Below are positions 1,345 through 28,036 of a DNA stretch of 64,000 nt, piece after piece (positions within the stretch are counted from its first letter, which is position 1; every line of letters begins with the position of its first letter). The stretch is from Capniomyces stellatus (lineage: Eukaryota; Kickxellomycota; Harpellomycetes; Harpellales; Legeriomycetaceae). The notes under the pieces were generated by a model. It was not told the DNA's origin and made no database searches. It saw only the letters and a program-made list of their open reading frames with translations. Location of the stretch: contig LUVW01000033.1 in the NCBI GenBank assembly GCA_001661515.1, positions 161,769 through 225,768 of the forward strand, given 5' to 3'. Both the position numbers and the translations under genes were made by a program.

Positions 1345-2076
1345 ATGCTTTCGGCAGATGATTTATACTTGACCTTTTGTACCAAAAAGTCAAAGAAAAG
1401 GATAGTTGTCACTCTAAACATCAGGTCGCTATTCTTTACACAAAATTTACTTTTGCCAATCCAGCGCAAAACACTAGTTAACATCGAAGAGTTGTGTCTG
1501 AAGCCACGTTTGCAAATGGTTCAGAAAATCAACGCCTTTGCCAAAAATACAGTCAACAGCAGCGAGGCTGTCCATGAGGCCAAAATTGAAAAGAGGAGCC
1601 AGTTGATAGAAGAGATAAGGCTGATTATCGATGACCTGTTTGTGATTTTAAACAAAAGTAAGGTAGCGTTGCAAGCGAGAGGCGAACCACAAGTGTTTCT
1701 AAAGAACTACAAGGGAAACTTGTATCGTTTTCTAGCAAACCTAGAGGTTGGCGAAAGAAAAAAAGAGTATCTGGGAATAGCGCTGGACCTGTACATGTTG
1801 GGCTACAGAGCTGCAGCGTTGATTCTTCCGTTGTCAACTTTTACGTTTCTGGATGTCACCAATAGCATTGCCGAGTTGGTGTGCGGCAACACGGATCAAA
1901 TGAAGGAAGGCTACCAGTTTTTGTACAGTGTTTACCACATCATAAACAGAGAGCTAGACTTTTTGAAAGATGAAGAGTACAAAAGCATAGTCCCTCTGTG
2001 CAAGAAGGTGATATCAAACATCATTGCATGGAGACATTTGCTGTATCTGAGCAAACGCAGAGGTGCAACTTCCTAG
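1345..2076 (+). CDS. Divergent 14-3-3-like protein A
   Basis: Single-exon gene for 243 residues, the size of a 14-3-3 protein. 14-3-3 proteins are all-helical dimers that bind phosphoserine/threonine peptides. Helix 3 is seen at about residues 40-62, helix 4 near 86-106, and the helix 5 signature at 116-134 (EPQVFLKNYKGNLYRFLANL, compare ESKVFYLKMKGDYYRYLAE). The C-terminal part ends in helix 9 with a Trp at 229, as in the family. Pocket positions are only partly kept: the K49 equivalent is Glu49, the R56 equivalent is Arg55, and the Arg-Tyr pair in helix 5 is Arg128-Phe129. Helix 3 carries ELCLKPR, a variant shared with the genes at 25.6 and 28.0 kb. Remote homology to 14-3-3 is convincing; normal phosphopeptide binding is not assured. 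The ATG follows an A-rich leader (aagaaaa). Confidence 0.75.
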   Translation: MLSADDLYLTFCTKKSKKRIVVTLNIRSLFFTQNLLLPIQRKTLVNIEELCLKPRLQMVQKINAFAKNTVNSSEAVHEAKIEKRSQLIEEIRLIIDDLFVILNKSKVALQARGEPQVFLKNYKGNLYRFLANLEVGERKKEYLGIALDLYMLGYRAAALILPLSTFTFLDVTNSIAELVCGNTDQMKEGYQFLYSVYHIINRELDFLKDEEYKSIVPLCKKVISNIIAWRHLLYLSKRRGATS

Positions 2077-2462
2077 TCACAGGAAATCATCTTACACATT
2101 TCACCCATTTCACTACTATCTCACATTTAGCACGTTTAGTATTGGGTGTGTTTCTACAAAGCTTTTATGTAGTCGTCTATTGCTTTTACACTTAAATTTA
2201 TTTATATTTATGTTTTCAGACTCTGGTCTGGTCTGGTTTTATTTATTTATTGAAATTGTTTATTTTTTTTTATTGCAAGTCAATTAACCGTTTTATTATT
2301 ATTTGATTTTACCAAGTTTCAATTTGAAAATAAACTAATATGTTTCTATGTGGCTTGGTCAATTACTAGGCTGAAATAAAATTGTAATACCCTTTGATAA
2401 TTGACAAACACAAAAGTATAACTAAGCAATTCCCAACGTGTTGATGTACTCTAGCATGGGCT

Positions 2463-2465
<3 letters not shown>

Positions 2466-2494
<29 letters not shown>

Positions 2495-2496
2495 GN

Positions 2497-2526
<30 letters not shown>
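2466..2526. repeat. Poly-G tract with an unresolved base
   Basis: About 60 G residues with a single N at 2496, so the true length is unknown. It may be a real G-rich tract or an artefact of homopolymer assembly. It produces spurious poly-Gly and poly-Pro open frames on the two strands. Confidence 0.85.
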
Positions 2527-2527
<1 letters not shown>

Positions 2528-3221
2528 GGAGGAGGAGGGGAGGCTCTTGAGCACAAAAGCAACGTAAGAGTGATGATGTTGCTTTACTCACGTGTGTATC
2601 AAACGCCTTTAAAGTCGAGATTTAACGCAACTTCTTTTTTAGTTTTATTTTTAAATGGGGGCACGAGAACACTAAAGTTGGTGCAAAAAAATAAAAGTAT
2701 ACATTTGCATTGCTATTCAATGGTAAGACAAGGTTCATATTGGGTGAGGCGCGGCTAATAAGTGTTTTTTTTGTTTGTGTTGTACATGGCTTCTAGATAA
2801 AGGATAGATAAAAAAAAGAGAATGATATGGTTGAAAAAAAAAACTGTTTATGTTGGTCAACTGCGGATATGGTAAAATGCATGCAAAGAGATGGGACGCA
2901 AACGTACGAGATAAATAATGTTGTATGTAAAAAAAAAAGGGACAACTATGGGATACTGAGTTGCGTTATGAGATATATTATCAAAAGGTGTGATTATATT
3001 TGTGTAATGTATCCATAACATATGGAACTAGTAAATGCAGCTGGTAGATGTTGCAAAGTTCACATATTTGTTTTTATAAAAGAGAAATGAACGTGACACC
3101 AAAAACAGTGTTACAAAAGAGAAAAGTCCAAGTAAAAAAGTCGGCCTTGTTACAAAGTAAATTTAGATGATTGTCAAGGTTTTCTTTATTTTTTCCAAAT
3201 ACAGCTTGATTTTATTTCCTT

Positions 3222-3248
3222 GGTCAAACGGGTCAAACGGGTCAAACG
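3222..3248. repeat. Three copies of a 9-bp repeat
   Basis: Three exact tandem copies of ggtcaaacg in otherwise unremarkable AT-rich sequence. Function unknown. Confidence 0.85.
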
Positions 3249-4461
3249 AGCGTGTGATATCAATGGCAAATATCAAATGTTTGTTATACCCGCTTATTTG
3301 CTGAATGATTGTAGATAATATGGCATTGATTGTTTATATCACATTATAAATTTTACGTTTTATTTCTATCATCTGTGTGTGTATGTTTTTTATTTTTATT
3401 TTTATTATTATTTTTGTTATTATTTTTATTTTTATTATTGCCATTGTTCTGTTTTGCTTTTAATAGTGGAAAATTAAAATGTTTGGATTAATAACTGTCA
3501 GGTTTGGCTAATAAGGCACAAGTGTAGCAGGTGAGATGAGAGAGCAGTAGGCGGAGGGCCTAAGCGTGTTTTGACTTGGGGAAAGGGTGGGGAGGTTGAT
3601 GTGGCAAAAGAAAAACGGGAAATTATAGTTAAATGAAGGCAAGGTGTGTGTAATGAATATTAAAACCTTAAATGCTAACAAAGCCAGGAAAACGCTGCAT
3701 TGCGAGCAATTCAAGGGTGCCAAAAGTATTTACGAATAAAAAATAAAGCGCCAAGAATAGATGGCACAATAAATTTGTGATTTGGAGAATTGGTATCCAG
3801 TACAGCATAATAAAATGAAATATAACATAAAATGTAGCGTAATAAAATATAAAGTGAAGGATGGCGTAGAGAAATGAAATATTTAAACAGAGAAACTTGT
3901 GAATTAAAAAAATAAGAGGCTGTAATATTAACACCAACATACATTTAGAAATAACAACGTAAAAAAAAAAAGTTTAAACTGGCAAAACAAGTCAGATAAA
4001 AAAGGAACAATTAAAGAATAAATAAAAAACATATATAAAGGGAATCTCAAATGCGGGAGGAATAGAGAGCAAAAAGTTTGGAAAACTGTTTGAAATAGTA
4101 CAAATTGGTAATATAATAGATATAATTCAAATTTGAGTATAGGGCTTAATTCTCAATTTTGCAAAAGTAAATGTAAAAGAAAGAGCGAAGGTCCTCACTT
4201 GGTTGTAGAAGTAAGAAAATTAGAGACGACACCAGCGTTGCGACTTTTTTTTTTTCGAGTCGCTTAGTGTAAACTGGATTTAAATTAAAATCAAGCTTTA
4301 GAAGGAATTCGGGTTACTTTGTTTTGAGGTGTAAAATTATAAACAATTGTTTGGAAGGGAAAGATCGAATTACAGGGTATGCTGTATAAACTGTAAACAG
4401 AGACAGAAACCGGATACGCGTACGTGCAATAAGAAGAGATAGATGTATAGAGAGTATAAAT

Positions 4462-6784
4462 ATGGCGAACGGCAACAGGAGCAATGGGAGTAGAAATAGA
4501 GTAGAAAGTGTTTTGGGGGAATCGAGCGATTTGAGCAGGTTGTTTGAAGAGTTGAGCGAAAGTGTAGCGATGAGGTCAAGGAGGAGATCGATAGAGTTGC
4601 AGGGGTTGGGGCTGGATACGGATAGGAGCAACGAGGAAGTGTACTTTGACACCTTGTTCTCAAACGCAATAGGTAAGGCGAAAAAAGAAAGAGGTGAAAA
4701 CGGGGCAGAGGGGGGTATTTGAAATGGATATAGTTGTTGGAATGAATTGTAAGTAAAAAGGATGTGGAACGGTATGATTTTATAGAAGACATGGAAGGTG
4801 GAGGACGTGGAAGTAGTAGTATAGCTTTAGATAATGGGGAGGAACAGGGAGTAGAGGGTGAGAGTGAGAGTATACCGGTGTTAGTTGGAGTAAGCGGAGA
4901 GGAACATGTAGATAATAATGGAAGCGAGGTTGAGAATGAAAGTGATAGCCAGAGTGAAGATAGAGGTGCTACAGGGAATGTAGATATGAATATGGGGATG
5001 ATGGTAATGAGCACGAATAATAACTTGGGTGTGCGTGGGAGAGGTGGGGAGAGGGTGGGCGTTGTAGGGGGAGTGGGTAGATCGGAAACGGCGATTGGAG
5101 GGTTGGAGGGAGTGCTGAATCGGTCAAATAGAACACAACATATGGGTGCAGCCAACGCGAGCATGAGATATTTGATGCCTAGGGGGTATAGGACGGTGGA
5201 TAGCAGGCTGATGGGGGTGCAGCCAAGACAGCAGTTTTCGACGATGCGGGAGTTGATAGCAGTGAGGAGGCGGGCAAGAGGGGGCGGAGGAGGGAACACA
5301 AGAGAAAGCAGAAATAGAAACAGAAACAGAAACATGGATGCAAGTATAGATAGAAGAGGGAATTTAGGAGATGGGGAAGAAGAAGAGGAGGATGGGGACG
5401 AGGAGGAGGAAGAAGAAGAAGATGAAGAAGAGGACTATGTAATACAGAGGGAGCGAGATCGGTTATTGGAGAGAGAGCGAGCGCTTTTGGCGTTTGGGAG
5501 TCTTGGAATAGACACAGATCTGCGCAGACGGCTTGAAAGAGAGCTGCGTAGAGACAACGCGTTGTTTGCAGAGAGAGAGTCGCAGAGAGTTGGAGCAAGA
5601 GCAATACATGCAGGAAAGAGGTTTGATAGGGTTGAGGAGATAGTCAAGCTGAGGGAGGAGGAACTGAAGACTATTCCTAGGGGTTTGGTGCCTTTGAGGA
5701 AGCTGAACAGCACTTTTCTGAAGGCAGGGACGCATTTTGTAGGGGTCCAGGAACTGGCCAAAAACAGCTCGAATCCTTTGCTTAATTTCGGCAGATTATC
5801 CTCCAGTCCAGGCAGTAACAGTGGGTCTGGATCAGATTCTGGCAGTGGGATGTGGGATGTGCAAGTCAGTATTGAGCATGTTGATATTGAGGCTGGTATT
5901 CTTGGAGGTGTTATGAGGGCATTTAACATCCCAATGGTTGAGACTACAGTAACTACTTTATGGAAAGGACAGGTGCGCAATGGAGCTCATACATATAAAT
6001 TAGTTGTGGTTAAATAGCAGATAATGAATAGAAACTGTAAACAATAAATGGGTGATTACAGATTGTAGATTTTAGAAACTTTGATCAATGGACTAGAAAT
6101 TGGACAGCCAATGTTTTAACAGACATGGCTCATTGGAGTCTGATCTACCCTCAAGCAGACAAAAGAAAATCAAGGTAATCAAAGCGGCTTAACTACTTGA
6201 CTTGTCAGTAGTGCGACTGTTTAATGCTGTGTATTCATTCATTTGTTTTGATATTGTTAGGATGCTGGAATCGTTTGAAAAGAGTTGGGTTGGAAAGTTT
6301 ATGCCATCGGAATTTGAAAACTATATTTTTATGAGGTGGAAAGGTATGGACTCACACTTGCTTTTTCATATTGGTTATTTGATGCCGAGAGTATATATAT
6401 ATGAATGTATGTTTAAAGTTGACGAGTCCTGTATTTATAAATCAATAGAAACCGATTTCTTAAAGTCAACATCAAGCGAAGCAGGACTGACAATTACCGG
6501 GTTTTATTATGTTGTTATGGACCGATTGACAGGCAGAGTAAATGGTAATGGTGAATTCAAATAGCATAAATAAGAGTGTTTAAATATGGCCGAGTAGGGA
6601 GCATGTATTTGGTAGATTGAAAAATAACGTGTAAAGTTTGATTGGGTTTTGTTTAGGAGTTTATTATGACCCACTATGCCAGCCGTTCCAAAAAGTAGAG
6701 TTGAGGCCAGTGTCTTTGAATGAGCCCAGCAAAAGTAATGGGGGCTGCAGTGGATACAGTTTCAGTTCTTTTTCTGTCTGCTAA
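4462..6784 (+). CDS. GID4: GID/CTLH ubiquitin ligase substrate receptor Gid4 (Vid24)
   Basis: Gid4 is the substrate receptor of the GID/CTLH E3 ubiquitin ligase and recognises N-terminal proline degrons, for example of gluconeogenic enzymes. Proposed exons: 4462-4672, 4786-5972, 6062-6174, 6261-6544 and 6657-6784, giving 640 residues; phases agree at every junction. The C-terminal third carries the family beta-barrel: STFLKAGTHFVG, then WDVQVSIEHVD, LWKGQIVDF, RNWTANVLTDMAHW (compare RKWDADEDVDRKHW), ENYIFMRWK, TGFYYVVMDRLTG and a last exon with VYYDPLCQPF. The N-terminal two thirds are acidic, Arg-rich and low-complexity (poly-Glu run near 5385-5435) with no recognised domain, making the protein longer than the 362-residue yeast and about 300-residue human proteins. 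The first junction is the least certain because disordered sequence gives no homology guide. Transcribed alone; the sequence shows no regulatory signal I can name. Confidence 0.9.
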
Positions 6785-7298
6785 ATAAGAGTGTTTGTAT
6801 TTCTAATATTGTTGTTGTGGAGACACAAGTTTTGGTTTATTTAGTGTTTGGGTATATATATGGCTTTGGTGATGGATTTCCAAAAATAAATAGATAAATA
6901 AATAAAGAACATTTAGAAATTAGCCGGTGAAAATGACTAAAACAGCAAAAAAAAAAAAAAAAAGTGTAAAACGTGATAGCAGAACAAATAGTTTGGTTGT
7001 GTCTGTAAGGCTTAAATAAAATTGCAAAAATGTAAAAAGCAACGATTAAAAATAGTAAATAAAGAGAAAGTGGAAAAGAAAGGAAATGATAAAACCAGGC
7101 TTTTAAAGAATCACAACAGTTCAAACATATTTTAATAAAAGAGTAAACTGGAGAGAATAAAAGAAGGTGCAAGAATAATAAAAAGGAGAAACAAGGCGGA
7201 ATTTATATAAAAAACAAGGTGTTTCATAAATTCATTAAATAAATAGAATTGGAAAAGAAAAGAAAAGAAAAGAAAAGGGAGGTGAAGGTGCCAATAGA
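6785..7298. other. Intergenic region between GID4 and VPS54
   Basis: About 510 A-rich bases. A (GAAAA)n run at 7252-7277 lies just before the VPS54 start. No gene seen. Confidence 0.7.
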
Positions 7299-10200
7299 AT
7301 GAATAAAATCATAAAGGTAGGCAATAGGCAAAGGGAAGAGAGAGAAGAAGAGGTGGAACGAGAACGAGAAAGAGAACGGGAGCAAGAAAGAGAACGGGAG
7401 CGGGAGCGGGAGAGGGGAATGGAGACGCCTAAATTCCCAGAAATGGTGTTTGGAGAGTTGACAAGAGGAGATAGTAGGCAGTGCGAGGGGGGGAAGGAGG
7501 TGGTGGGGTCAGGGTTGGAGCTGGGGCTGGGGCGGGAGGCTTCAAGGGGGTTTGGGGTGGAGCGAAGAAAGTATATATGTATGGGGGAGGGGGATGAGAT
7601 AGTGGATAGGGAGGAGTGGATGGTGATTCAAACGAATGCGATATCGGGGTTGACGAGGAGTAGGAAAAAGTCGGGGTTGTTGGGGAAGATAAGCAAGAGC
7701 GAGTTACCGGTGGTTAAGGGGACAAAGTTCAAGTCGGTAAAGTACGGGACGTTTAAAAAGTATGTGGACCAGGTTGAGGAGGAGTATCAGCAGCATTTGG
7801 AGAATCAGGAGAGAAAGAGGCAGTTTGTGTTTAAGCAGCAGCAGGAGCTGATAGATGAGCAAGGACGGGAACGGGAGTTGGAGTTGGAGTTAGGGATAGA
7901 GTTGGGGTCGGAATTGGAGGGGGAAGCTTTGGGAAAGTTATTAAAGGGGCAAAGGGGTGCTGGTGGGGGGTATGTGAATGGCAACAGGGATGGAGATAGC
8001 TTCAGTGACAACAGGGAGGGGAGGGGAAGAGGAGAAATTGAGAGAAAAGTTCCAAGTATATTTTTTTCAAAGACGTTTGATTTAGAGGATCCAGGTACGT
8101 TTGAAAAGGTGATGGGTATGCTGAGAGAAGATTATAAAGGTGGGGGTGAAGAAAATAGGGATTACGACAATAGGGGCGGGGGTATGAAGTTTGAGGAGGT
8201 GTTTGGGAGAGAAAAGGAGAAGGAAAAGTTGAATGAGTATTTGGACCGAGTGGAGACGGAGTTGACGAGGGAAATAGCGGGGCGGTCAAAGGCGTTTTTT
8301 GAGGCGCTTTCAACGTTGCAAAAGTTGTATGAGGAGACAAAGCATTGCAAGCAGGAAATCCAGAAGCTGTTGGGAATAATTGAGGAGTCGAAGGAAGTGG
8401 AGAGGAGCAGTGGAGTGTTGGTGTTGGTGGGGATGCAGCGGAGGCGGATGAACCTGAGGGAGAGTTTGAGGTTTGTACGGGTGCTTGAGGAGACGTGCAA
8501 CACGCTGCCAGTGATTGAGGAGTTGGTTAGAGGAAATGACTCTGTTGGGGCGTTGAGTTTGCTGGAAGAGCTGGAAAATGTGGTAATGGATACAAAAGCA
8601 GCAGGAAAATCGACGAGTAACAGCAGCGATAATGAAGACAAAGAAAAAGACAAAGAAAAGGGCAGAGGCAGAGGTAGGCGTAATAAGGCAGGGGAAGCAA
8701 ATGAAGAGTTGAGAGAGTTGGGGTTAGTTAACAATACGTTTGGGTATACAGCAAAGCAGCTGAAGAGAGCAATGGAGTCGGTGGCAGACACGGCGTTGGA
8801 GAGTTTGGTGGAGCATTTGGAGACAGGGATGGTAGAGTATGTGGAAAGTAAAAGCAAAGTTAAAGTTAAAGGCCGAGTAAACAGTAGTAGAAAAAGTAAA
8901 TACAGGCATAGAGTAGAGATAAACGGAAAGGTATTGGCGTTGGTTCGGGGACTGGAGAGGATAGGCAGAGGTGGGGAGGGACTTGGGAAGTTTGGGGAGA
9001 GACTGGAGGAAACAGTAGGGAGGTTGGTGGAGAAACATTACCCAGACGAGGCGGGGCTGGTGTTTCCTCGGTCAGGAAATGGAGTGGATTTCAACGATGC
9101 TCAGGTTCAGGAGCAATTAGCAGCGAGCGTGAAGGCGGTGTCGTTTGACTTGTTCTTGAAGCTGCTGGTTGACCAGTGCAACAGTTTGGTGTTGGTGAAT
9201 GAGTATATCAGTGAGGTTTGTTTGGTTGTTTTTCAGCAGGTTTGCAAGACAAGTCCAGTAGAAGATGGTAATTAATCAGAGTAAATAACAGATAGTAAAT
9301 ATTAAATAGCAAATGGTGAATATAGAGTAAATAGTAAATAGTAATGAATGATGAATGATGAATAGGCGAGTTGGGTAGAAAAGTCAACGAGTTAAGGGAA
9401 CAGATAACGGATATTTCGCACATGAGGTTTGCCAAGTTGATTTTACACAGAAAGGAGCAGAATTCAAGGCTGCCGATTGGATCGTTTTACCGGGTGTTTG
9501 AAGAGGCAAAGAAGTTTATTTACCAGGTGGAGGAGCTGAGTAGTGGGAAGCGATCGGTGTCAACGAGATGGTTAGTGATGAGTTTGGGCAAAAACTTTAT
9601 ACAGAATTTGTCGGTGGAGAAGAGCAAGCAGCTGAACATGATGATTGAAAACGAACAATGGAACCAAACTGATGCACCACAGGATTACCAGCAACTATTT
9701 GACAAGTTGGTAGAAACTAGTAACATTCAAATCGAATCTGAACCAGAGTTTGAATCTGAACCAGAGTCTGAATCTGGATCTGGATCTGGATCTGAATCTG
9801 GATCTGAATCTGAATCTGAATCTGAATCTGAATCTGATTATAGATTCAAGTCTAAATCTAGATTAGAAATTGGTAAAGTAAAGGATCCGTTTTATGTGAG
9901 ATCGGCAGAATTGGCAAGTAAATGTTTGCCACTAGTAACAGCAAACAACAATAGTAGCAATAATAATAATAATAGTAATAGTAATAGTAATAGTAATAGT
10001 AATATTAATATTAATAGTAATAATGTTGGAAGGAGGTCGGTAGGGAAATTAACAATCAACAATACAAGCTATGCGGTGGTTGGCAGTGTGTTGGTGTTGA
10101 TAAAGATAGTGTATGACTATGTGGTTGTTGGGCTGCACGTGCCGTTTTTGGCGACGCAGGTGGTGGCAGAACTATCGGGAGTTCTGAAGCAGTTTAACAG

Positions 10201-11110
10201 CCGGGTGTGCCAAGTAGTGTTGGGGGCCGGGGCAATGGCGTCTGCGGGGCTAAAGAACATTTCGGCAAAGCATATAGCGTTAGCGTCAATAGCGCTGGAT
10301 GTTGGGGTGGAACTGATCAACACGACCCAGAAGATCCTGGGGTTCAGCGTGGACAGCACGCAGGCAGCGTTGCTAGGAGTATTTGACCAGATCAGATTTG
10401 ACTACATGGCCCACCGCGACGAACTGTTCAAGAAGCTGCTGGCCATAATGGGTGACCGTGCAAGTGTCCATGTTGCCACAATTGCCCGGACAAACTACGA
10501 CGATTTGGTTGGGTTGCCCAGTCCAGGTGCCGCCCTCATCCTTACTGAACTGGCTAGACTGCACAGGATTCTTTCCCGCTACCTCAAGTCCTCCGACATG
10601 CTTTTGACCTTCCGCTCTATTGTGTCCATCTACGACCTCAAACTCAAACCCGTTCTCGAGTCCCAAGTCCTTGTCGCCACTGTTGTTGGAAAACTCAACA
10701 TCATCAACGACCTGCGCGAACTCAACATTTCTCTCTCCTCCCTGCCCCACGTCCCCAACCTCTCTGACATGCTTGAGATTCTTGCAAACAACATCAACCT
10801 CGTCTCTGACTTTTTACCCCCCACAACTCCCCCCACTCCCCCCACTAGTGCTCGTGCTGACTACCAGAAACGGGCCCAACAGGATCACGATGGTGAAAAT
10901 TATGACTATAGCGACCAAAGCATCAACCAATCAAGCTCCGAATCTCTATATATCGGTGGTGTTCAAGTAAACGTCCCTAAATCCCATAGCCAAATCTCTT
11001 CTCCTACCAACTCCAACTCTCCATCACTGTTGGTTTCTGATCCTAATACTGTTTCTGTTGCTGACCCTGTTACTTTACCATGTCATTCTATAGATTCTGA
11101 TAGTAATTGA
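7299..11110 (+). CDS. VPS54: GARP complex subunit Vps54
   Basis: Vps54 is a subunit of the GARP tethering complex, which captures endosome-derived vesicles at the trans-Golgi network. Exons 7299-9267 and 9366-11110 (98-nt intron) encode 1237 residues. A charged Arg/Glu N-terminus is followed by a Vps54-like stretch containing NAIS, then FSKTFDLEDPGTFEKVMG, and the coiled-coil block FFEALSTLQKLYEETKHC (family FFNALSSLQNLH). After the intron come the region with MMIENEQWNQTD (family LDNERWKQADVP) and the C-terminal Vps54 domain with LTINNTSYAVVGSVLVLIKI, VCQVVLGAGAM, KHIALAS and AIMGDR. Inserted low-complexity tracts include Ser-Glu repeats (about 9735-9840) and Asn/Ser repeats (about 9955-10025). 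The protein is longer than most family members because of these. The coding strand is strongly G-rich until about 10.4 kb and C-rich afterwards. A later in-frame ATG at 7419 could also be the start. Confidence 0.92.
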
Positions 11111-11214
11111 TTTTACTGATTATATCGATTTTACTGATTATATCGATTTTGCTGATTTTACTGATTTTACTGATTTTACTGATTATATTGATTATATCGA
11201 TTCTATCGATTTTA
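11108..11214. repeat. Diverged ~19-bp tandem repeat
   Basis: Repeated ttttactgattatatcga-type units, the shorter ones missing the tatatcga part, located in the VPS54 3' flank. They probably lie in the 3' UTR. Confidence 0.8.
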
Positions 11215-12233
11215 TTTCTATAAAAAGCTAATCTGTTGCTTTATTATTATTATTATTATTAATAATTCAAGGGGTCCCCAGTTCTATTTATATTCCCACT
11301 ATTATATTACTAATATTTGGTTACTAATTACTTTTTAATAGTCGAATGTAACATAAAAGCAGCTTTTTTGTTTTTGTTTTGGAGATTCAAAACGCAAAAT
11401 CTATTTTACAAAATATGTATAGTGCAACGATAACATAGCCAATACAGAATAGAACCCCAGACTTTTATTATCATTACAGTTTTAACGTTATTATCGATAT
11501 TGAACTAGCTTCAGGATTTTTTGTTATTATTTTTTTTTTCCATTTTTGTTGTGATCAAAAAGTCTATGCAAGTTGTGAGATTAACACTTATTCATTCTCC
11601 ATTTTTGTTTATATAAAAAGAACAATTATAGATTGGTCAGTATAGCAATTGCATAGTTTCTATAACTTGAAGTTGCGAATAGACGATACAACCGACAATT
11701 TACGATTTATTTTTACGATTTATTTTTAGTTTTGGTTTAGGTTTTGGTTCTTTACGCCGAATGTGTTGCAAGCTTATTCCAGAGTAGTTTGTCTTTTTTT
11801 TATTTTTTTTCCCATTCTAGTTGTAATTCTGATTCTTTTTCTCTAATTTCTTTCTTCTTTTCTTTTCTTTTTTTTTTTTGGTTTATTTAATTTATTTATT
11901 TTGCTACTGTAGCAATCCAAGGTAAAAAAGAGGAAAGAAAGAAAAGAAGGAAAAAAAAAGGGAGGTGGAAGAATTTAGGAGGCTTGTAAACAGCAATAAT
12001 AACAACGAAAAAGAAGTAATAGGACGGAATAAGAGGAGTTAACATCAAGTGGGATAGCAACACGAAGAAAGTTATTCTATTTTTTTAAAAAAATATATAT
12101 AAAGCAAGTAGGAGTGGAAGTGGTGGTGGTGGAAGCGGGAGGAAGCAGAGAGGAATAGATAAATATAAAACAACAAAAAACTATATAACGATAAAACGAT
12201 AAATCCGACAGAAACAATAGTATAATAGCAATA
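11111..12233. other. Intergenic region with tandem repeats
   Basis: About 1.1 kb, AT-rich. It begins with diverged tandem copies of ttttactgattatatcga (11108-11214) directly after the VPS54 stop codon. The remainder has T-runs and purine-rich runs before the MAPKK start. No gene seen. Confidence 0.65.
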
Positions 12234-15808: not shown

Positions 15809-18204
15809 TCAGTTTGCATTCATAATGGCTTCGATATCCAATCGTGATTTTGGTGTTTGGCGTGTCAAAACCACAGATTTTTTACTGATTGGTCCATTGA
15901 TACCTGGTTCATTACTACTACGGCTGCCACCAACAACGACATTGTCTTCAATTCGAATTCCAATGCCTTGGAAATGTTTAGGATAAATACTGTCGTATGG
16001 TACATAAATTCCAGGCTCAACAGTGACCACCATTCCGTTTCTGAGTTCGAGTCCTCTACTTATATCGCCAGTGTCATGGACATTCATTCCTAGGTAGTGT
16101 GACAGGTGGTGTGGGTAAAGTCTCCTTGACAAGCTATTAACAGTCAAGTCCTTAAAGCCCAGAGAACTAAGCTCTCGAACCAACATCCGCGCAGACATGT
16201 TGTGCAGGTCGTTTAAGCTCAGTCCGCTATCCGAGTTTGCCTCCTTAATTGTTTCTTCTTGGACCAACAGCACTGCGTCGTAAAGGTCGGCTTGCGCAGC
16301 TGAATACTTTCCGTTTACTGGGAACGTCCTGCTGATGTCTGCGGTATACGACGAATACTCCATTCCTGCATCCACAAGAACCAAATCCCCACTTCTAAAA
16401 TATATAAAAGCAAGAGAAAGTCAGTTTTTTTTTTTTTTTTTTTTGCTTCCCCCTTCCCTCCTTCCCTTCCCTCTTTTTTTTGTGTGTATTAAAAATTGCT
16501 TACTTTATTGGCATGTTGTTCTGGACATAATGCAGAACCAACGCTCGATCTCCTGACGCAAATACCGGCACATACCCGTGTCTTGCCAACGACGCGGTAT
16601 CGCCACAACTGAGCTTTGAATAGTGTTCAAAGGCCGACGCCAACACGTCCTCGTTAATTCCGGGCTTGCAAGTTGCGTACACCTGTTTAAACCCAACTGC
16701 CGAAATGTCTGCTGCTTTTTGGAGCAACTTGATTTCGTTCTCCGACTTTATCAGGCGCAGATTTTGGACACGTTTGTCAACTCCCACAAGTTTGGCTGTT
16801 GCATTGGCTATGTATTTAAAATGTTTCAGTTAGATGTTAATGACATGTATTTCAAATCGAACGTTTCCACTATAGTCAACTCGTTCTTTTTTTTCTTTTT
16901 TTCTTTCTTGATTTCTTTTTCGAATAAGCAAGTAATAATTAGCAGTGCTTTCATCTCTTCCAAACCTTCTTTGCAGATTTCTAGAACTTTGTTCGAATTT
17001 GATCCTAATACCGTGTCGTTTTTGGACGGTATGTCCATGTATATCTTTGCAGAATCCGTCAGCTTTGCGTTTTTGATCATGCTCTTTGACCGCTTTTCCA
17101 ACTCCTGGATTGGCCAGGCTTCATCAGCACCAAAAATATCAACTGCACTGCACAGCCCGTTCCTTGGCCCATCCCAAACCTCGCGTTCAAAGTCCTTTTT
17201 CTCACAGAACAGTGTTGTTTTGTATCCCTTTTGTACCAAGCTTGTTTTTTCTAGGTCATTATTATGGCGGTTATTATGGCGATTATTATTATATTCGTGT
17301 TTCTTGATGAGTTGATTGTATTAACCAACACCGTCAACAGCCTCACAAAAAAAAAAAAGAAGGTTCATTGATATTATTAATGCTGTGATTACCAATAATC
17401 ACAGCCGAGTTTGGTTCGTTCCACCCTGTAATGTAATAAAAATTTGTGTCTTGTCGGAACGGATAGCTAACAACAACAACAACAAGTTGGTACTGTGAAA
17501 GAATAAACAGAATGGTGTTCAAGTTCCGCATGTAAAAGTTGAGCGAATAAATAAATTGAAATAATAACCGGAATGCGTACTTACAACACATGAGGTGAGT
17601 AGTATCGTGTTGAGGCACTGAAAAGGATTACCAAACTGCCCTCAGGCAAATCCTCAACCAAGTTGGATTTACGCTCTTCGAATTCGGTTTTAGGTATTCC
17701 AGGCACAACTATTGAAGATGAAATACAAAGGTGGAATAAGATAAACCCGTTACTGTTGTAGTGTTTTTTTTTCGGTACTGTACAAACGCTATATATATAT
17801 GTGTGTGTGTGTGTTTGTGTATACTTTACGTTCGTTTGGTTTTACAAGCAGCGGATTGACTTGGTTTGTTGGTTGGCCAAACCAATTTTCGGTTATTGGA
17901 TCCATTTTTTGAGGGGTTTGGAACAGCCCAAACCTTCTATTTACTTCACATTGGCCTAGCACAAAAAGATATATTTAACGAGTTTGAGGGATCCCAATTT
18001 ATCACAATAAAAAAAACCTTAAAAAAAAAAACCACAAGACAACTAAACAAAGAGCAAAGTGGAATTGGTAGAGTGGAATTGGCAGCGTGGGTTAGTTGGT
18101 AAAGTGGGTTAGTTGGTGGTTGACAAACATGACTTACTAAAGTTTCTGACTAGTAGATTTAACCGAGTTGGTCTGAATTTCAAAGTGAATGCGGTTCTCA
18201 ACAT
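15809..18204 (-). CDS. ICP55: Mitochondrial Xaa-Pro aminopeptidase (ICP55/XPNPEP3 family)
   Basis: M24-family metallopeptidase; family members trim an N-terminal residue from imported mitochondrial proteins, stabilising them. Seven exons, in transcript order: 18204-18138, 17955-17830, 17708-17585, 17466-17393, 17250-16966, 16807-16504 and 16394-15809, giving 521 residues. The N-terminus (MLRTAFTLKFRPTRLNLLVR) is basic, hydroxylated and amphipathic, as expected for a mitochondrial presequence. The aminopeptidase P N-domain shows FGQPTNQVNPLLV, GIPKTEFEERKS, EGSLVILFSASTRYYSPHV and FYPFRQDTNFYYITGWNEP. The metal ligands of the catalytic domain are all present: Asp in VDAGMEYSS, Asp in TADISRT, His in SHYLGMNVHD, Glu in VEPGIY and Glu in IRIEDN. 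The junction after exon 5 uses a weak donor (gtttgg) and is the least certain. The intron between exons 4 and 5 contains a T12 tract. Confidence 0.93.
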
Positions 18205-18614
18205 ATTTGAAATAGCAGTATTCGTGATGTAAACGCGGTTTGAGTTTACTGTATAGTGATTTGGGTTGCTGTTAAGTAGTAATCTAGAAAGAAGAAGAAA
18301 AACAATAGGTATTAGACAAAACAAATGAATGGAGGTTGAGAAAAAGGGGGGAAAGTTTAACTCCAAAGAATCAGTTTAGAATTAAAGTTGATTAGAATGG
18401 CAATAATAGAATGGGAAAAAAAAAAGGGCGGATTACCAAAAACAAATGAACAAATCAGAGAGTCGTGTTGGTTATTTAATTTGATTATAAAAAAGAAAAA
18501 CGATCAAAATCTATATTCAGTGATGTATTTGGGAGAGGTAAATAAAGAAAAGGTAAATAAGGAAAAGGTAAATGAAGAAAAAGTTGATTATTGCTATTTG
18601 TGTAATTGACAGAG
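18205..18614. other. Intergenic region, head (ICP55) to tail (SCYL2)
   Basis: About 410 bases between two minus-strand genes. It contains three diverged copies of ggtaaataaagaaaa at 18538-18582 and no gene. It should hold the ICP55 promoter and the SCYL2 3' end. Confidence 0.65.
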
Positions 18615-21600: not shown

Positions 21601-21680
21601 TTCACTTGCTTTATCGTTTGTGTTGCTGCTAAATTCGCATTCGCCGCAAAATCTTTTAACTTTGTAAAGTACCCCTCCAT
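18615..21680 (-). CDS. SCYL2: SCY1-like pseudokinase, SCYL2/CVAK104 family
   Basis: SCYL2 proteins are clathrin- and adaptor-associated pseudokinases acting in Golgi/endosome traffic. Three exons, in transcript order: 21680-20929, 20807-20506 and 20326-18615, giving 921 residues. The kinase-like domain has FITEQVLCSLYDSI, GLEFLHNEVKLVHGNINP (HGN where active kinases have HRD), a GDWKLGGFGF segment replacing DFG, and FLAPEYVIDNE. A HEAT-repeat region follows, starting at YFDNVLVGTIQYLE (compare FFDDVGAVTLQYFD). The C-terminal third is disordered and rich in Pro, Ser and Asn and ends in NDLSIFDPFS; the DPF triplet is the motif that binds the AP-2 alpha-ear. Missing HRD and DFG motifs are normal for this family. 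The intron between exons 2 and 3 is made largely of TTATTCTATT-like repeats. Confidence 0.92.
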
Positions 21681-23469
21681 TATTATTACTCTTTCTTTTT
21701 TCCCTTCTTTACCGTCAATCTATTGTTTATTTCCTTTTTTCCTCTTTCTACTTTTTATTCCTTTCGCCGTTTTTCTTGCTCTTTTTCTTTCTTTTATCCT
21801 TCAATCTCCTTTTTTTTTCCTACTTTATCCCAAATTTTATCTGGTAAAACACTCTCTCTTCAAATTCCCTACATTAACTTGAATTTATAAATTTTCTCGA
21901 TTTTTTTTTATTTATCTTTTAATTTCACTTCAAACCATCTTGTATTTCGTATTTCAACATTCAATTAGCAATGGCCCAGTTTTGCTTTGGAAAATCACCC
22001 TTTGATTTACAAATCCTCGCTACTATTATCCAATGACTTTTTCATTCCGCCATTGTTGTTGCCCTTTTGTTGCCATTTCTTCACCTAATTGCTTCCCTAA
22101 AACCAATGCCCACTATTCAAACTCCATTACACCTTGACCACTCCAACTACAATCCACAGCTGCATATACACCATTCCTCTCACCCTTTCTCCCCTCTTCC
22201 CTCACCCTCCCATTCCCAATTTCTTTTTTTTTTTGAGCTATTATTACGTTGACCCTCCTTTCTACCAACACACATTCACATGAAATATCAAAGCCTCTCT
22301 CATCCAAGTCAACTTACTGACTTTCACATTCCTTCCAAACCAGTTTAAATCACAAAACCTGTGTTACCGGCTATTATATTCTCCGTCCTGTGTTGCCTAC
22401 TCTTCTCTTTATTGTTTTTTTTCCACTGCCCACAACACAATAGAGTTGACAAAGAATTCCATGTCTTAATTTGGATCCGCATTTGGCTCAAGCAAGTTTA
22501 ACCCAAATTAGACTTTATCAAGTATTCGTTAAGAAGAGAAAAAAAAATCTCGAAATGGACAACCCACTTGAATCCTGTTTGCCTAATGTTTATAGGTCTT
22601 GGATTTTAACGTATCAAGGCTAGATTTGTATATCAATCTAACCGGCACAATTAATCTCGTTTTGTATCAAGTACTAAATCAACTAACCTGTTCAGGAAAA
22701 AAAAAAAAATTAAAGCCCAGCTCATATGGTTGATTGGCTTGCGCTTCAAATCTACCAAATACCATTCGGTGATAAGTTTGTTATAGGCCATTTTGAACGT
22801 AGAAAGTAAACGCACGGTTTGTAAGCAATCGTCAGATAACTTGACTGGGTGGCGTGCTTTATCGATGACACGGGCATGAGATCCATTTGAGGTTGCAACG
22901 CCTTTAAAAAAAATACAACCTTTTATACTTGATGATCAAACCTAACTTTTTCTTTTTTTTCTCATTTTAAATAATAACAGTGTTAATAAAACACCGACTA
23001 CATGGATATTTTGCCTCACTAAAATATTTGCAGTTATCAGTATCAACACTGATATCAGTGGCACCCACTACTTTTTTTTTTAAATATATATATATACAAA
23101 CCGAGTAACTATAGAGTTATGAAATACAATAAAGAAAAAGAATAAGAAGAAAGGATATTAAGAATAAAGAGAAAGAATACACTTTGCATATTTGGATGGC
23201 CATCCAAATAGCCTATGCCCAGGGAATACTGCACTGCGGTTGCCATCAATCCAAAAATAAATAAAAAAAAGGTTTGATTATTTTGGAAAAAAAAAAAGTT
23301 GTGAAATGGGCATGTATATAAAGCGAGAAAGAATAACCTACTTGGTTTTTTTATTTTTTTTTAAAAAAAAATACAATACTTGCATCTTTTTTCAGAGTAC
23401 ACTTTATCGAAGAGCTAATCGGCAAAGAACTGATACTAACTTTGACCACTATAATTGCGCAAATCCGCC
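21681..23469. other. Divergent intergenic region of about 1.8 kb
   Basis: It separates the 5' ends of SCYL2 (minus) and the pseudo-trypsin gene (plus) and so should hold both promoters. The SCYL2-proximal part is pyrimidine-rich on the plus strand; the rest is AT-rich with a short TA repeat near 23087. No supportable gene. Confidence 0.6.
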
Positions 23470-24714
23470 ATGTTTATTAAACCAACCATAAGCCTGATTG
23501 CCTTGTGTATTGCATCAAGTGCTGCTTCTTTACCCGGCAACACACCTAAACCAAGTTCTATATACTTTGACGAAAATGCTGTTTCTAAACACATCAAATT
23601 GAGCAGCGTATTAGGGTTTGATATCATTGGCGTTCCAGAGTACCACAACCTGGTAAACGTAGCGGTTTTGGACTTTAGTGATGTGTATAATACCGAGCAC
23701 TTTTGTCTCGGTGTTGTTGTTGAAAGCAGAAGAATCATCGTATCTACCGCATGTTTTCAGAATAAAGCAATAAGCAATTCTTATGGCTTTGCTAAAGGAT
23801 ATTCCAACATCCTTCACGCCGTCAAAGTTTACGAGTTTAAAGACGGCGAGTATATTTACAAAAGTAAAGGTAAATGCTTGATTTTTTTTTTTTATTATTG
23901 AAATATAAATGCTAAATTTGGCTTTTTAGATTTAGTTGTAGCTTTGGGCTAAATCAATGAACCCTGGAAATTGTTGGTAATAACTGTGATTTTATTTGCA
24001 ATAGACCGACTAAGCGTGAATAGATTGTTAAATAAGCCTGTGAAGCGTATAATTAGCATGCACATTGGTCCAATAATGGGCATCACCGCCAGTGGTAAAA
24101 TGGTAATATTTTCTCAGTACGTGATTTTAATAGTTGATAAATACAGAGGAGAGGTTTTTAAAAAACACGCTGTTATTCACGCTGGTCATGTAATTGACAA
24201 GAACAACTTGCTCCAGTTTGACTACAGTTCAAACGAAGCCGCGAAATGTTCTAAAGAAGTTGGAACTAGCCTCAACACGGGAAAAAGCGTCAATGTTGCA
24301 AACTGTTTCAGCTTTTCCAACTCCAAAACGTCTACAAAATACTTCTCGCCTGCCACAAATCCGTTTGACGAACAGGTAAAGTTTATTCCCAGTAATGTAA
24401 ACTTGCAAAAATTCTTATCCTCAGAAAACGCGCTTGGAGCTAGTAGCTCCAAGTGCGTTTTAAAAAAAATATTCAAAAGACGTATCACTGTGGTGCCGAT
24501 GGGAAGCGTTTTCTTTGTCAAACGGCTATTGAACACTGGCAGTTCTGGCCAGAATAAGCAAAAATTTGCACTGGATTTTCTTGGGATAAGCCAATTTGTA
24601 AACTGCGACATTGATGGCGGAGAGTATCAATGCAGCTACGTGATCTACCCGATAGACGCTTACCCTTGGATTAGTGAGAATATCAATTTCCATTTGAATT
24701 CAGCTTCAAACTGA
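23470..24714 (+). CDS. Secreted trypsin-like (S1) serine protease homologue, probably inactive
   Basis: Two exons, 23470-23869 and 24005-24714, encode 369 residues. The first ~20 (MFIKPTISLIALCIASSAAS) are a clear signal peptide. The mature part starts like a chymotrypsin-fold protein: FDIIGVPEYHNLVNVAVLD, then EHFCLGVVVESRRIIVSTAC, which matches the FCGGxLIxxxWVLTAAHC block. At the catalytic His position the sequence has Ala (STAC for AAHC), and no GDSGGP motif is visible. The C-terminus GGEYQCSYVIYPIDAYPWI resembles the PGVYTxVxxYxxWI end of S1 peptidases. I infer a secreted non-catalytic protease homologue with a binding or regulatory role that I cannot name. The ATG was chosen because it gives the signal peptide directly. 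An alternative acceptor near 23932 would lead to an early stop. Confidence 0.65.
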
Positions 24715-25572
24715 GACTCAAATACAGCTTCGGATATGCTCATACAGTAGCACAAAGCCAGATGAGGTTCAATGTATAGGTATGGTTGATTCTGTATCTA
24801 AAACTCGATTGTGTTTTTTGAATACATTCCGTTATCTATATGCCAATCTAGTTTTATTTACGTTGAAATGAGGCTTTGGTGCCGAAATGTGCAGAAATGG
24901 AATATACTTAATTAATGACACGTTATTATAAAGAAAAATAGCATCTTGTATCAAAAAATATATGTAAAAAAAAAGTGAGTAGATGCTTTTTAGACTTGAT
25001 CTATTTTGGACTAAAAAAATTTCTGTGCCTACTTTAATAAAAGAGAGGAAAAGGTTAATAGAATTTGGTAATTTCGGGTCTAGACTCGACGGTCTTTGAG
25101 GAAATTAGAGTGGTGGTGATAATTAAATTTGGGGTTGATCTTGAAAGCTGATGAGTAATGTTTTAAAAAAAAAAGCTATTTTTGTGACAACTTGGAAAGT
25201 TGATGCATTGGATTTAAAGGTTTAGGGACAAGTGGTATGTTGTCTGAGAATAAGCGTCTATCTGAGCTCCAGATACTCAAGTTTGAGCTAGGAGTTATAA
25301 CAAACTAAAATGTATAAAAGCACAGGGAGATTTGCAAAGCTCGCCACCATTACCATTTTTGTTTTACTCTGCAATATACTTGAATACGAAGTTTTGGCGA
25401 GATATCTGTTTTAACGATTTTTTACGTTTATTGATAAGGTTTTTTTATAACCAGAACAGTCTGCTTTATTATTGTTTTCTTTTTTTAAAAGAAAGGAGAG
25501 GAAAGAAGTGATACTGGACAAGAACTTTGGCTGATAACAGAGTAATTGGTGTATTTTTTTTTTTTTGGAGAA
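24715..25572. other. Intergenic region
   Basis: About 860 AT-rich bases between two plus-strand genes. A TATAAAAG sequence near 25314 is a candidate promoter element for the 14-3-3-like gene B. No gene seen. Confidence 0.6.
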
Positions 25573-26361
25573 ATGCATTGTTATAGTACGAGGTATCTGC
25601 TTGAGGTTTTGGGGCCAAATGGGCTGATGTATAGAGTACACCCTGATGTGATAAAGTTTATCGAGTCGAAAACGCGATTTTCTTGGCAAGAGTTGGCGAT
25701 ATTCAACGAGATAATGGTGCTGTGTCTTTGTACAAGGTTAGAGTACTTTGATGGCCATCGGAAGTTGCTAGAAAGAAACTACAAGAACAGGAGGTTTGAT
25801 GTGGAAAAGACGGTTCGGGTAGCGAAAAAGTTGAAGAGCGAGATATTTTCCATCTGCCATCAGCTGTTGGCGCTGTTGAACCACAATGACCTGGTGTATA
25901 ATGGGGAAATAAAGTCGAGGGTTGTTGCGTGTAGATATTATGGAGACGTGTATATGTATTTGGGAGAGATTGAGAGTGGAGCAAACAAGATGGTTTATTA
26001 CAAGAAATCAATAGAGTATTTCAATAAAGGAATTGGGATTGCATCGGAGGATTACAAGGAAACCAAACCGACACTTCTTGTGATTACAAAAAAACTAACG
26101 GATCTGTACCAGTTCAGTCTGTTTAACCCAACAAGAGCATACGAGGTGTGTAACAAGATACTGAAGAGCATTAAAAACCTAGAAGAGTTTGAAGCAGCAA
26201 ACAACACGAGCGGTGAGATAATAATGATAAAGGATGTGGTGAACAACATGAACGTGTTGAAAAACAAGGTTTTGAAGGGGAAATCCCTGACTTGTAAGAT
26301 TGATAATGAGTTTTACTTTTTAAATCTGAACATGAAGAGGTGCAAGTACGCGGACATCTAG
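25573..26361 (+). CDS. Divergent 14-3-3-like protein B
   Basis: Single-exon gene for 262 residues, chosen from the first ATG after a T-rich leader. It shares helix 3 with the 14-3-3-like genes at 1.3 and 28.0 kb: VLCLCTRLEYF at 49-59 compares with ELCLKPRLQMV and DHCLYPRVMLY. Helix 4 is visible at about 86-105 (KLKSEIFSICHQLLALL) and helix 5 at about 118-134 (VACRYYGDVYMYLGEIE, compare KGDYYRYLAE). The K49 position is Val49, the R56 position Arg55, and the helix 5 Arg is replaced by Met128 (Tyr129 kept). The C-terminal half has helical repeats (YYKKSIEYFNKGIGIA, then KPTLLVITKKLTDLYQF) but lacks the final helix 9 Trp. It is the most diverged of the three. Gene C lies about 370 bases downstream in convergent orientation. 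Confidence 0.65.
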   Translation: MHCYSTRYLLEVLGPNGLMYRVHPDVIKFIESKTRFSWQELAIFNEIMVLCLCTRLEYFDGHRKLLERNYKNRRFDVEKTVRVAKKLKSEIFSICHQLLALLNHNDLVYNGEIKSRVVACRYYGDVYMYLGEIESGANKMVYYKKSIEYFNKGIGIASEDYKETKPTLLVITKKLTDLYQFSLFNPTRAYEVCNKILKSIKNLEEFEAANNTSGEIIMIKDVVNNMNVLKNKVLKGKSLTCKIDNEFYFLNLNMKRCKYADI

Positions 26362-26728
26362 CAACAAAGTGTTATTGTGGTTCATTCACGACCTAAAACA
26401 CTAGTTTGAACGACGCAATGGCCTGTTTATCTATTTAACTAGTATGTGTTTACTATTATTTGTTTATTTGTTTATTTATTTAACTATTTATTATTTAGAT
26501 AAATCATCCGACACTCTAATTTTTACTCTTGATTTCTTGAAAACAAAATGTTGATGCAGATTGAATCAATATGAAAGTATATCAACTTAATACCAATAAT
26601 GGTAATAAAACAGTAATGGAGCTAAATATGTCGGATTACAAGGCAAAATAGATAAATAAATAAACAAAAACGAGAAAAAGTAGTGAATAGACAAAGTTGG
26701 TGAGGGGAAGGAGGTAGAAGAAACAAAT
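26362..26728. other. Convergent intergenic region between 14-3-3-like genes B and C
   Basis: About 370 bases containing TTATTTGTTTATTTATTTA repeats and AATAAA-like sequences on both strands, as expected for two facing 3' ends. No gene. Confidence 0.65.
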
Positions 26729-28036
26729 CTATAGTTCTTGTGAACCACTGATGTAAACTTTGAGTTTCCACAAGCCCAGCATGTGTGTGATTCTTTCAAT
26801 TATAGGAGACACTTTACAGAACTCAACTTCATCCAGCAGTTTGATTGAGCCGTCAATGTAGCTCAAGTAATCGGCGGCAAACTGGTAACCCTGGACTGGC
26901 AAGTCTAGACTGTTTGCGATAAAACTTGAAAGGTTGAGAACAAGCTTTAGATTGACCAAGTTTGTTCTTGGCAAGTTGGTTTGGGCATATTCGTAGGCAT
27001 ATTTGTAGGCATTAAGCGATGACTGCAGGTAGTATTCCTTTTTTGACTCTTGATAGTTTGGTTCTTGGTAGTTTGGTTCTTGGTAGTTTGGTTCTTGGTA
27101 GTTTGGTTCTTGGTAGTTTGGTTCTTGGTAGTTTGGTTCTTGGTAGTTTGGTTCTTGGTAGTTTGGTTCCTGGTAGTTTGGTTCCTGGTGGCTTTTGTTT
27201 GGAATTGTTTTAATAACTGGGCTTTGGTTTTCAAGTTTGCTATTGCTTGTTTTGATGGTGGGATTGTGGCGTTGTTTGTTGGGTTTTTGGCAGGCTACGC
27301 CTAAATTGTGGGAAGTTTTAGGTAGCCACTCGCTGATGAATGAGTTTGGTTTGACATGTGGTGGATTGATCAAAAGTAAATCTGGGGAATTAATAGCGTT
27401 GTGCTTGTAAAGTTTATGTTGGGTGATGGGATACTCGTACTCTTGGTGGTGGTATGTGTTGATGTCATCGTCTTCAAACTCAGCTAGGTAATTGAACAAG
27501 TCACCGATGGATTTGTAGAAGAAAACTTTGGATTCGCCATCGCTGTACCTGACCAATCTGCATTTTTCGAGGATGTAAATGATGTCTGTACAGATGGATT
27601 GGATCTCGGCTTTTAAGGATGCTTTTTGAAGTTTTATTTCGAGCTTTTGGTCGTTGACTGAGGGATTATCGATAGGATCACAAGTAGGATTCAGACTCAA
27701 GATGTCAGTACAGCTGTTTATTTTAATTTTGACGGTGTTTTCGGTAGTTTTCAGGTTATTGTCTGGTGGTGGTGTTGTGGGTTTGGGCGGCTGTTGGGTT
27801 GGAAAATGATTGACGGAGGAGCACGTTGGTAAAGCAAAATTATCGATGGAATCAAGAGATCTGTAGAGCATGACTCTGGGATAGAGGCAGTGGTCGTTTA
27901 TGTTAGTCAAGACGGATCTTTCGCGGGGGGAAATAGATGTTCTGAGAAAGAACATTGATCTGATTTCGTTGTTTACAAAGAGTTTTGTATGTCCATTTTC
28001 TTTGACTTGGATCAGGTAAAACTGGTCACTAAACAT
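26729..28036 (-). CDS. 14-3-3-like protein C with a repeat-filled insertion
   Basis: Single-exon gene for 435 residues. Helix 3 is at about 38-60 (RERSVLTNINDHCLYPRVML), helix 4 near 142-160, the helix 5 signature at 168-188 (ESKVFFYKSIGDLFNYLAEF, very close to 14-3-3 ESKVFYLKMKGDYYRYLAE), and helices 6-9 follow the insertion (YYLQSSLNAYKYAYEYA, NLKLVLNLSSFI, HMLGLW). Two insertions make it much longer than a 14-3-3 (~245): a Pro/Asn-rich one after helix 3, and one between helices 5 and 6 holding about ten YQEPN pentapeptides. Pocket residues: K49 is Asp48, R56 is Arg54, R127 is Asn182, Y128 is Tyr183. That is two acidic or neutral changes in the basic groove, so canonical phosphopeptide binding is unlikely. 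Of the three genes this one has the clearest 14-3-3 signature. Confidence 0.75.
   Translation of the reverse strand: MFSDQFYLIQVKENGHTKLFVNNEIRSMFFLRTSISPRERSVLTNINDHCLYPRVMLYRSLDSIDNFALPTCSSVNHFPTQQPPKPTTPPPDNNLKTTENTVKIKINSCTDILSLNPTCDPIDNPSVNDQKLEIKLQKASLKAEIQSICTDIIYILEKCRLVRYSDGESKVFFYKSIGDLFNYLAEFEDDDINTYHHQEYEYPITQHKLYKHNAINSPDLLLINPPHVKPNSFISEWLPKTSHNLGVACQKPNKQRHNPTIKTSNSKLENQSPVIKTIPNKSHQEPNYQEPNYQEPNYQEPNYQEPNYQEPNYQEPNYQEPNYQEPNYQESKKEYYLQSSLNAYKYAYEYAQTNLPRTNLVNLKLVLNLSSFIANSLDLPVQGYQFAADYLSYIDGSIKLLDEVEFCKVSPIIERITHMLGLWKLKVYISGSQEL
27051..27190. repeat. 15-bp coding tandem repeat (YQEPN)
   Basis: About ten near-identical copies of ttggttcttggtagt, the last two carrying a C for T change. 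Read on the minus strand inside 14-3-3-like gene C, each unit encodes Tyr-Gln-Glu-Pro-Asn. The near identity suggests recent expansion, and copy number may vary between strains. Confidence 0.95.

Follow-up and report, generated by a model that had tools for sequence, protein, structure and literature searches.

The genome of Capniomyces stellatus carries two ordinary, intron-bearing 14-3-3 genes and, beside them, a divergent family of at least seven members. The seven that we could analyse whole are intronless, and none of them has an intact phosphate pocket, whereas both ordinary genes carry the full one. Few eukaryotic signalling proteins are as conserved as the 14-3-3s, and the phosphate pocket is treated as their defining feature. 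We give a little better than an even chance to the reading that these paralogues have kept the helical cup and given up reading phosphoserine, which would make them candidate ligand-binding scaffolds. The family suggests that an old signalling scaffold has been turned to a new use.

Three divergent genes in one stretch of DNA

The window is a stretch of 64,000 nucleotides on contig LUVW01000033.1. Three of the seven members (W1, W2 and W3) lie in it and the other four elsewhere in the same genome. W2 and W3 are convergent.

1345..2076, + strand: W1, divergent 14-3-3-fold protein, 243 aa, one exon
1495..1509, + strand: W1 helix C motif CLKPR, residues 51-55 (translation, alignment)
25573..26361, + strand: W2, divergent 14-3-3-fold protein, 262 aa, one exon
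25597..25638, + strand: W2 residues 9-22, predicted beta-hairpin replacing helix A (DSSP on AF2 model)
25723..25737, + strand: W2 helix C motif CLCTR, residues 51-55 (translation, alignment)
26729..28036, - strand: W3, divergent 14-3-3-fold protein, 435 aa, one exon (ORF, translation)
27047..27448, - strand: insert in W3, about 130 residues long and lying between helices E and F; both ends approximate (alignment)
27048..27189, - strand: 15-bp tandem repeat within the W3 insert, encoding a QEPNY repeat (Tandem Repeats Finder; 9.5 copies, 98% matches)
27875..27889, - strand: W3 helix C motif CLYPR, residues 50-54 (translation, alignment)
27974..28015, - strand: W3 residues 8-21, aligned to the W2 hairpin stretch (alignment)

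A neighbouring housekeeping gene has its closest relatives in Harpellales and other Kickxellomycotina fungi.

An earlier note on this DNA had taken the three genes for 14-3-3 genes with a common (L/H)CLxxR motif in helix C. Both claims hold. The frames are intact at these coordinates, the motif reads LCLKPR, LCLCTR and HCLYPR, and in the profile search that the note had proposed all three proteins pass the curated PF00244 cut-off of 33.2 bits (W1 37.8, W2 43.3 and W3 74.8 bits, the last in two stretches). Structure prediction, also proposed there, points to the same fold, ordinarily an all-helical cup of nine helices, among the matches listed: the best 50 of each search are by title 14-3-3 entries or complexes with 14-3-3, and a few titles name the partner only, for example BRAF.

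Other helical families were considered and, within the matches listed, set aside. SMG5, SMG6 and SMG7 (EST1) show a 14-3-3-like fold in a diverged setting, but they are large and also contain TPR and further domains. Pfam gives the seven proteins no TPR, SMG/EST1 or other helical row at E up to 1, and the listed structure matches are 14-3-3.

The family in the whole genome

Beyond the window, a search of the whole genome, again an idea of the earlier note, found four further whole members, all above the PF00244 cut-off (4/4), and two more copies that are identical to each other. The part of these two copies that was read, 134 residues, scores 14.4 bits (E 0.029), under the cut-off. The seven whole members are only 13-24% identical to one another; the two ordinary genes of the genome share 78%. 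All seven carry the motif C-[LV]-x-[PT]-R, with proline in 6/7. Its cysteine aligns with V51 and its arginine with R55 of 14-3-3 zeta, and both residues are invariant (7/7). The members outside the window, the lost phosphate pocket and the altered N-terminus go beyond what the earlier note had described.

A tree built from 19 rows over the 197 columns that span helices C to I, with the N-terminus and the inserts left out, places the seven on one side of a branch with support 97/98. Their end branches are very long. The earlier note had proposed a lineage-specific, fast-evolving branch. Fast evolution and separation from the housekeeping 14-3-3s stand, given this branch and the two full-pocket genes of the genome. 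The branch may or may not be lineage-specific: two protein searches returned ordinary 14-3-3s only, and relatives much below 50% identity (our estimate) would escape them because both need shared exact words. One search, with a profile of the seven rows, scored 7995 candidates and gave 32 proteins at E <= 1e-3; the other, with the C57 member, the one member queried singly, had 601 candidates and gave 30 proteins at E <= 10. Together they yield 36 distinct proteins, all of which retain the ordinary pocket. Against the PDB, the profile scores best with 14-3-3s of yeast (E 2.6e-37 and 2.1e-36).

Simple tandem duplication does not account for the window trio, since W2 clusters with the members from contigs C29 and C3 and not with its neighbour W3. 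As to a viral origin, W3 was used for one pattern scan across viral contigs, which detects close relatives only and found none. Among the literature matches listed, no title describes such a 14-3-3 family; no paper was found that combines Smittium with 14-3-3, or that joins 14-3-3, K49E and V176D.

Loss of the phosphate pocket

The full set K49/R56/R127/Y128 occurs in 0/7 divergent members and in 38/38 ordinary rows (the 36 found proteins and the genome's own two), a control that leans to conserved proteins because it was gathered by shared exact words. An earlier site table had held 12 ordinary rows. Position by position, the divergent members keep K49 in 0/7, R56 in 1/7, R60 in 3/7, R127 in 3/7 and Y128 in 5/7. 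Acids have moved in: position 49 is acidic in five of the seven, and every member has an acid at groove position 49 and/or 176. We take V176D to be a laboratory loss-of-binding change in 14-3-3. From these residues we predict that ligand binding dependent on phosphoserine or phosphothreonine has been lost in the divergent members. Since some keep R127 or Y128, remnant phosphate binding is possible, above all in the C57 and C29 members, which retain both.

The N-terminus and the dimer contact

In the family, the region of helix A is a common DxxYL segment. The AF2 model of W2 has two strands there (residues 9-14 and 17-22, DSSP). Its mean pLDDT is 69.9, and residues 1-30 reach 53, 69 and 72 in successive blocks. 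With modest confidence, the model thus predicts a beta-hairpin in W2. In the model of W1, residues 4-12 instead form a helix of low confidence (pLDDT about 39); this model was built with 29 ordinary 14-3-3s, whose N-terminal alignment was poor.

It is possible, if rather doubtful, that the N-terminal change is real and amounts to a disordered or shortened helix A, with artefactual strands. Such a change would be compatible with our main reading, and the strands do appear in just one of two models, with modest confidence there. However, that model is the one with a sound N-terminal alignment, and 5/7 members have a turn-like NG, PNG, PDSKG, NNNG or DNRG in the middle of the segment, where ordinary helix A has AEQAE.

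In the whole-genome search, residues 3-68 of W3 match the N-terminus of W1 (E 4.3e-4). Against the hairpin, the N-terminus of W2, the very protein modelled with it, is the one that is not distinct from its own shuffles (236/1000 score as high), even though the test was anchored on the shared YL and so favours real sequences. The N-terminus may resemble the beginning of BTB/Skp1 folds. Capture of a new N-terminal domain was rejected as first choice because the distance from tyrosine to motif, 43 residues, equals that of two of three ordinary rows (the C3 gene and P0005; P0007 has 46) and because the ordinary C3 gene has DxxY too.

Ordinary 14-3-3s dimerise with helices A and B packed against C' and D' of the partner. 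In the family the contact residues of helix A are mostly replaced: L12 by C, V, V, H, V, V and Y, A16 by S, N, G, G, D, C and G, and R18 by K, L, T, P, K, R and I. Position 89, presumably one half of the usual dimer salt bridge, is acidic in 7/7, and its usual partner R18 is basic in just 3/7. Given the conserved acid, the old dimer contact may be retained in part.

Alternatively, the divergent proteins could be built-in dominant negatives that form pairs with both ordinary 14-3-3s, cutting their valency or titrating them, much like laboratory K49E. The acids at positions 49 and 89 fit this idea, and K49E 14-3-3 zeta is described as dominant negative in PMC2956685. We consider it unlikely: the helix A side of the contact is mostly replaced, and the mutual identity of the seven reflects far more divergence than a titrator requires.

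A proposed mechanism

Returning to converted scaffolds, we can sketch how such proteins may be built and work. Helix A would have turned into a beta-hairpin, as in the one model. By helix spacing, residues 51, 55, 58 and 62 should lie on another face of helix C than the groove residues 49, 56 and 60; the face with C51 and R55 may form a new subunit contact with the changed N-terminus. The groove, now acidic or hydrophobic, might bind basic or unphosphorylated peptides, the basic preference being read from its charge. Different members could then hold different partners, as constitutive scaffolds that work without kinase switching. The detailed version is tentative, and its chances fall well short of even: here helix A would have been remodelled on the spot, with no change in length, into a hairpin forming a new dimer contact together with C51/R55, and the groove would read unphosphorylated, perhaps basic ligands.

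If true, the best-known reader of phosphoserine would here have been converted by nature, in several copies, to a different purpose. A genome with two ordinary copies and at least seven that lack the intact pocket and have a changed N-terminus would provide a natural test of the fold without phosphate, and the family may show a dimer element going from helix to hairpin at unchanged length.

Phosphopeptides might instead still be bound, through a shifted pocket in which the invariant R55 acts with R60 or R127 (each in 3/7). A shift of the register by one residue would place the invariant arginine at R56. Yet even then position 49 is basic in 0/7, and acids at positions 49 and 176 work against phosphate. 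Three features support the unshifted register: the shared ER that directly precedes the motif of W3 and C8, a hydrophobic residue at W59 in 7/7 and the 43-residue spacing. A shifted pocket is in our view distinctly improbable.

Selection acts on the protein, since the invariant residues are encoded by differing synonymous codons. Across the seven frames, GC2 is 0.27-0.34 and GC3 0.42-0.55, and the chance of a whole frame without a stop, given its own base composition, lies between about 7e-8 (W1) and 9e-11 (W3). That the genes are relaxed, decaying duplicates without function, as the very long branches and the known active site lost in 7/7 might suggest, is highly improbable in view of seven whole frames, this codon-like composition and these varied codons.

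Comparison with known 14-3-3 systems

Ordinary fungal 14-3-3s (Bmh1 type, PF00244) are homologous to the family over helices C to I and share with it R55 and the acid at 89. In contrast to them, all seven members lack an intact phosphate set, have an altered helix A region, carry C51 and mostly P54, and show no introns.

Trypanosoma brucei 14-3-3I/II resemble the family in their atypical target recognition. However, PMC3006207 describes their phosphopeptide-binding residues as well conserved and phosphopeptides as bound.

A parallel comes from Cryptosporidium parvum, which has one ordinary 14-3-3 and two that have strongly diverged, Cp14a and Cp14b (PMC3154893, also for what follows). Cp14b has rearranged helices A and B, fused in one subunit, and an odd dimer. 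It binds its own phosphorylated tail, and both proteins are described as retaining a triad. C. parvum has only these two diverged copies, whereas C. stellatus has at least seven, with pocket residues lost and a hairpin predicted.

A family of divergent 14-3-3 genes

The window carries three divergent genes of the 14-3-3 fold, W1, W2 and W3. The earlier note had proposed all three from sequence alone, and ORF calling and translation bear it out: each frame is real and uninterrupted. In a Pfam profile check each protein also exceeds the curated 14-3-3 cut-off. Two inserts account for the greater length of W3. The first separates helices C and D; the second, of about 130 residues, lies between helices E and F and contains a 15-bp repeat coding QEPNY.

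Genes of the window
1345-2076, + strand: W1, intact open frame
4746-6017, + strand: Vid24-like (Vac_ImportDeg) gene, ordinary fungal neighbour
9362-11110, + strand: Vps54 gene, ordinary fungal neighbour
15809-16420, - strand: M24 peptidase gene, ordinary fungal neighbour
25573-26361, + strand: W2, intact open frame
26729-28036, - strand: W3, intact open frame
28506-30221, - strand: TCP-1 zeta gene, ordinary fungal neighbour
40844-41695, + strand: dual-specificity phosphatase gene, ordinary fungal neighbour
60231-61190, + strand: bZIP factor gene, ordinary fungal neighbour

We searched the genome (24.5 Mb, 59 contigs, the window lying on contig C27) in six frames with PF00244. The 11 matches correspond to nine genes. 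Two are ordinary 14-3-3s, with splice points placed by eye: in C3:194810 an intron follows the first 20 codons, and in C25:28493 one precedes KGDYYRY. The other seven are divergent, each a single open frame: W1, W2, W3, C57:243226, C29:185996, C3:340866 (C3b) and C8:168178. These seven are 14-3-3 paralogues by descent.

Used singly as genome queries, the seven together return the same nine genes, one addition, and low-complexity matches that trace to the repeat in W3 (W3 query). The addition, found with W1, is a further 14-3-3-like member with two copies on two other contigs. The copies are identical over 134 compared residues (27% identity to W1) and 100% identical over 623 compared bases, which suggests that the gene was duplicated very recently or that the assembly contains it twice. 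The 134 compared residues score below the Pfam 14-3-3 cut-off, and the family placement is due to the match to W1.

Loss of the intact phosphate-binding set

We aligned the seven divergent members with 12 ordinary rows (MAFFT L-INS-i). Between the N-terminal Tyr and the end of helix C, all seven align without gaps to the ordinary C3 protein. Positions are numbered as in 14-3-3 zeta, and the roles given to them are those of the textbooks. The shared helix 3 motif of the earlier note, (L/H)CLxxR, falls at zeta 50 to 55. All seven have Cys at V51 and Arg at R55, and six have Pro at A54 (Thr in W2).

The phosphate-binding set K49/R56/R127/Y128 reads KRRY in 38 of 38 ordinary rows. In the divergent members it reads ELRF (W1), VLMY (W2), DVNY (W3), EVRY (C57), LVRY (C29), ERKY (C3b) and EVGS (C8). 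An acid stands at K49 in five of the seven and at V176 in five; every member has an acid at 49, 176 or both. V176D has reportedly served as a laboratory loss-of-binding change in 14-3-3. N173 is retained in two of the seven. Since the seven depart from the family at one defining site, the phosphate set, we file them as a 14-3-3 variant and not as ordinary members.

The closest precedent we found is the pair Cp14a and Cp14b of Cryptosporidium, degenerate or rearranged 14-3-3s (PMC3154893). Among the papers searched, none names both Smittium and 14-3-3. Relatives of the divergent family may sit in fungal genomes that are unsampled or poorly matched.

A rebuilt N-terminus

The ordinary C3 gene reads ADHVYKAKLAEQAERYDEM over helix A and the first part of helix B. 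In the divergent members this stretch is replaced by a DxxYL segment (Asp in six of seven, Tyr and Leu in all), with an alternating pattern and turns, for example YLIQVKENGHTKLFV.

A leave-one-out profile of the segment was compared with 1000 shuffles of the left-out seventh sequence. The test is anchored on YL, which somewhat favours real sequences. The real N-terminus outscores all 1000 shuffles in W1, W3, C29 and C3b, and is equalled or exceeded by 3 in C57 and 14 in C8. The W2 N-terminus failed this test (236/1000 shuffles score as high). Ordinary N-termini score below zero in the profile or are unreported. Independently, residues 3-68 of W3 match the W1 N-terminus in a whole-genome search (E 4.3e-4). 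Given the profile test and this match, the divergent N-terminus is a derived feature common to six or all seven of the members.

The Tyr lies 43 residues from the motif Cys in all seven. Among ordinary rows the distance from Tyr to V51 is 43 in the C3 gene and P0005, and 46 in P0007. The unchanged length and the retained DxxY suggest that the N-terminus was altered in place rather than by domain capture.

Descent and selection

Pairwise identity among the seven is 13-24%, compared to 78% between the two ordinary genes. In a PMSF tree of 19 rows, a branch with support 97/98 sets the seven apart from the other rows. End branches are long (1.3 to 10 changes per site), hence this grouping could in part be long-branch attraction. 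C51 and the N-terminal segment make up few of the tree columns or lie outside them, and are separate evidence of one origin. Within the seven, W2 clusters with C29 and C3b (94/91); W1, W3, C57 and C8 are resolved no further.

Codons at the invariant sites differ silently (R55: CGT, AGG, AGA, CGT, CGA, AGA, AGA), and a stop-free frame has a chance of 7e-8 to 9e-11 for each frame. As judged from their coding sequence, we take the divergent members to be working genes.

A possible mechanism

Judged from the spacing of residues along helix C, zeta 49, 56 and 60 would lie together on its groove face. Zeta 51, 55, 58 and 62 would lie on another face, turned towards helices A and B and the partner subunit; positions 58 and 62 belong to the dimer contact. 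Invariant across the divergent members are the Tyr, the Leu, C51, R55 and an acid at 89. They would fit the partner-facing side of helix C and the N-terminus, and the residues lost or reversed are those of the groove. Read most simply, the family would have a fixed new scaffold or dimer contact and a groove that no longer accepts phosphate. As a first guess, its ligands might be basic or unphosphorylated peptides. Two rivals to this reading remain: the divergent members may titrate the ordinary 14-3-3s, or they may bind phosphate at a shifted site.

Neighbouring genes

The TCP-1 zeta gene (reading frame 28506-29723) adjoins W3. Among the 120 of 6607 matches listed, Smittium culicis shares 74% identity with it across the full query and Zancudomyces culisetae (Harpellales, Kickxellomycotina) 76% over 84%; further Kickxellomycotina, Martensiomyces and Coemansia among them, follow next by score. 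The top score among the matches listed belongs to a fish, Labeo rohita (60% identity over 89%), which we regard as a peculiarity of that database record. Judged by this gene, the fungus most likely belongs to Harpellales or stands close to them.

About 0.86 kb upstream of W2 lies a likely two-exon gene, identified by eye (23470-24714, + strand). The start of its product resembles a secretion signal, and a Pfam search with the product gave no match. For its second part there is a single clear paralogue, on contig C40 (28%, E 4.7e-13), besides weaker matches on contigs C34 and C23. The only tRNA that ARAGORN reports within the window is a tRNA-Arg with anticodon tcg (43517-43591, + strand). At 43817-46960 (- strand) there is an open frame of 1047 aa with LGSGLGSEL-type repeats.
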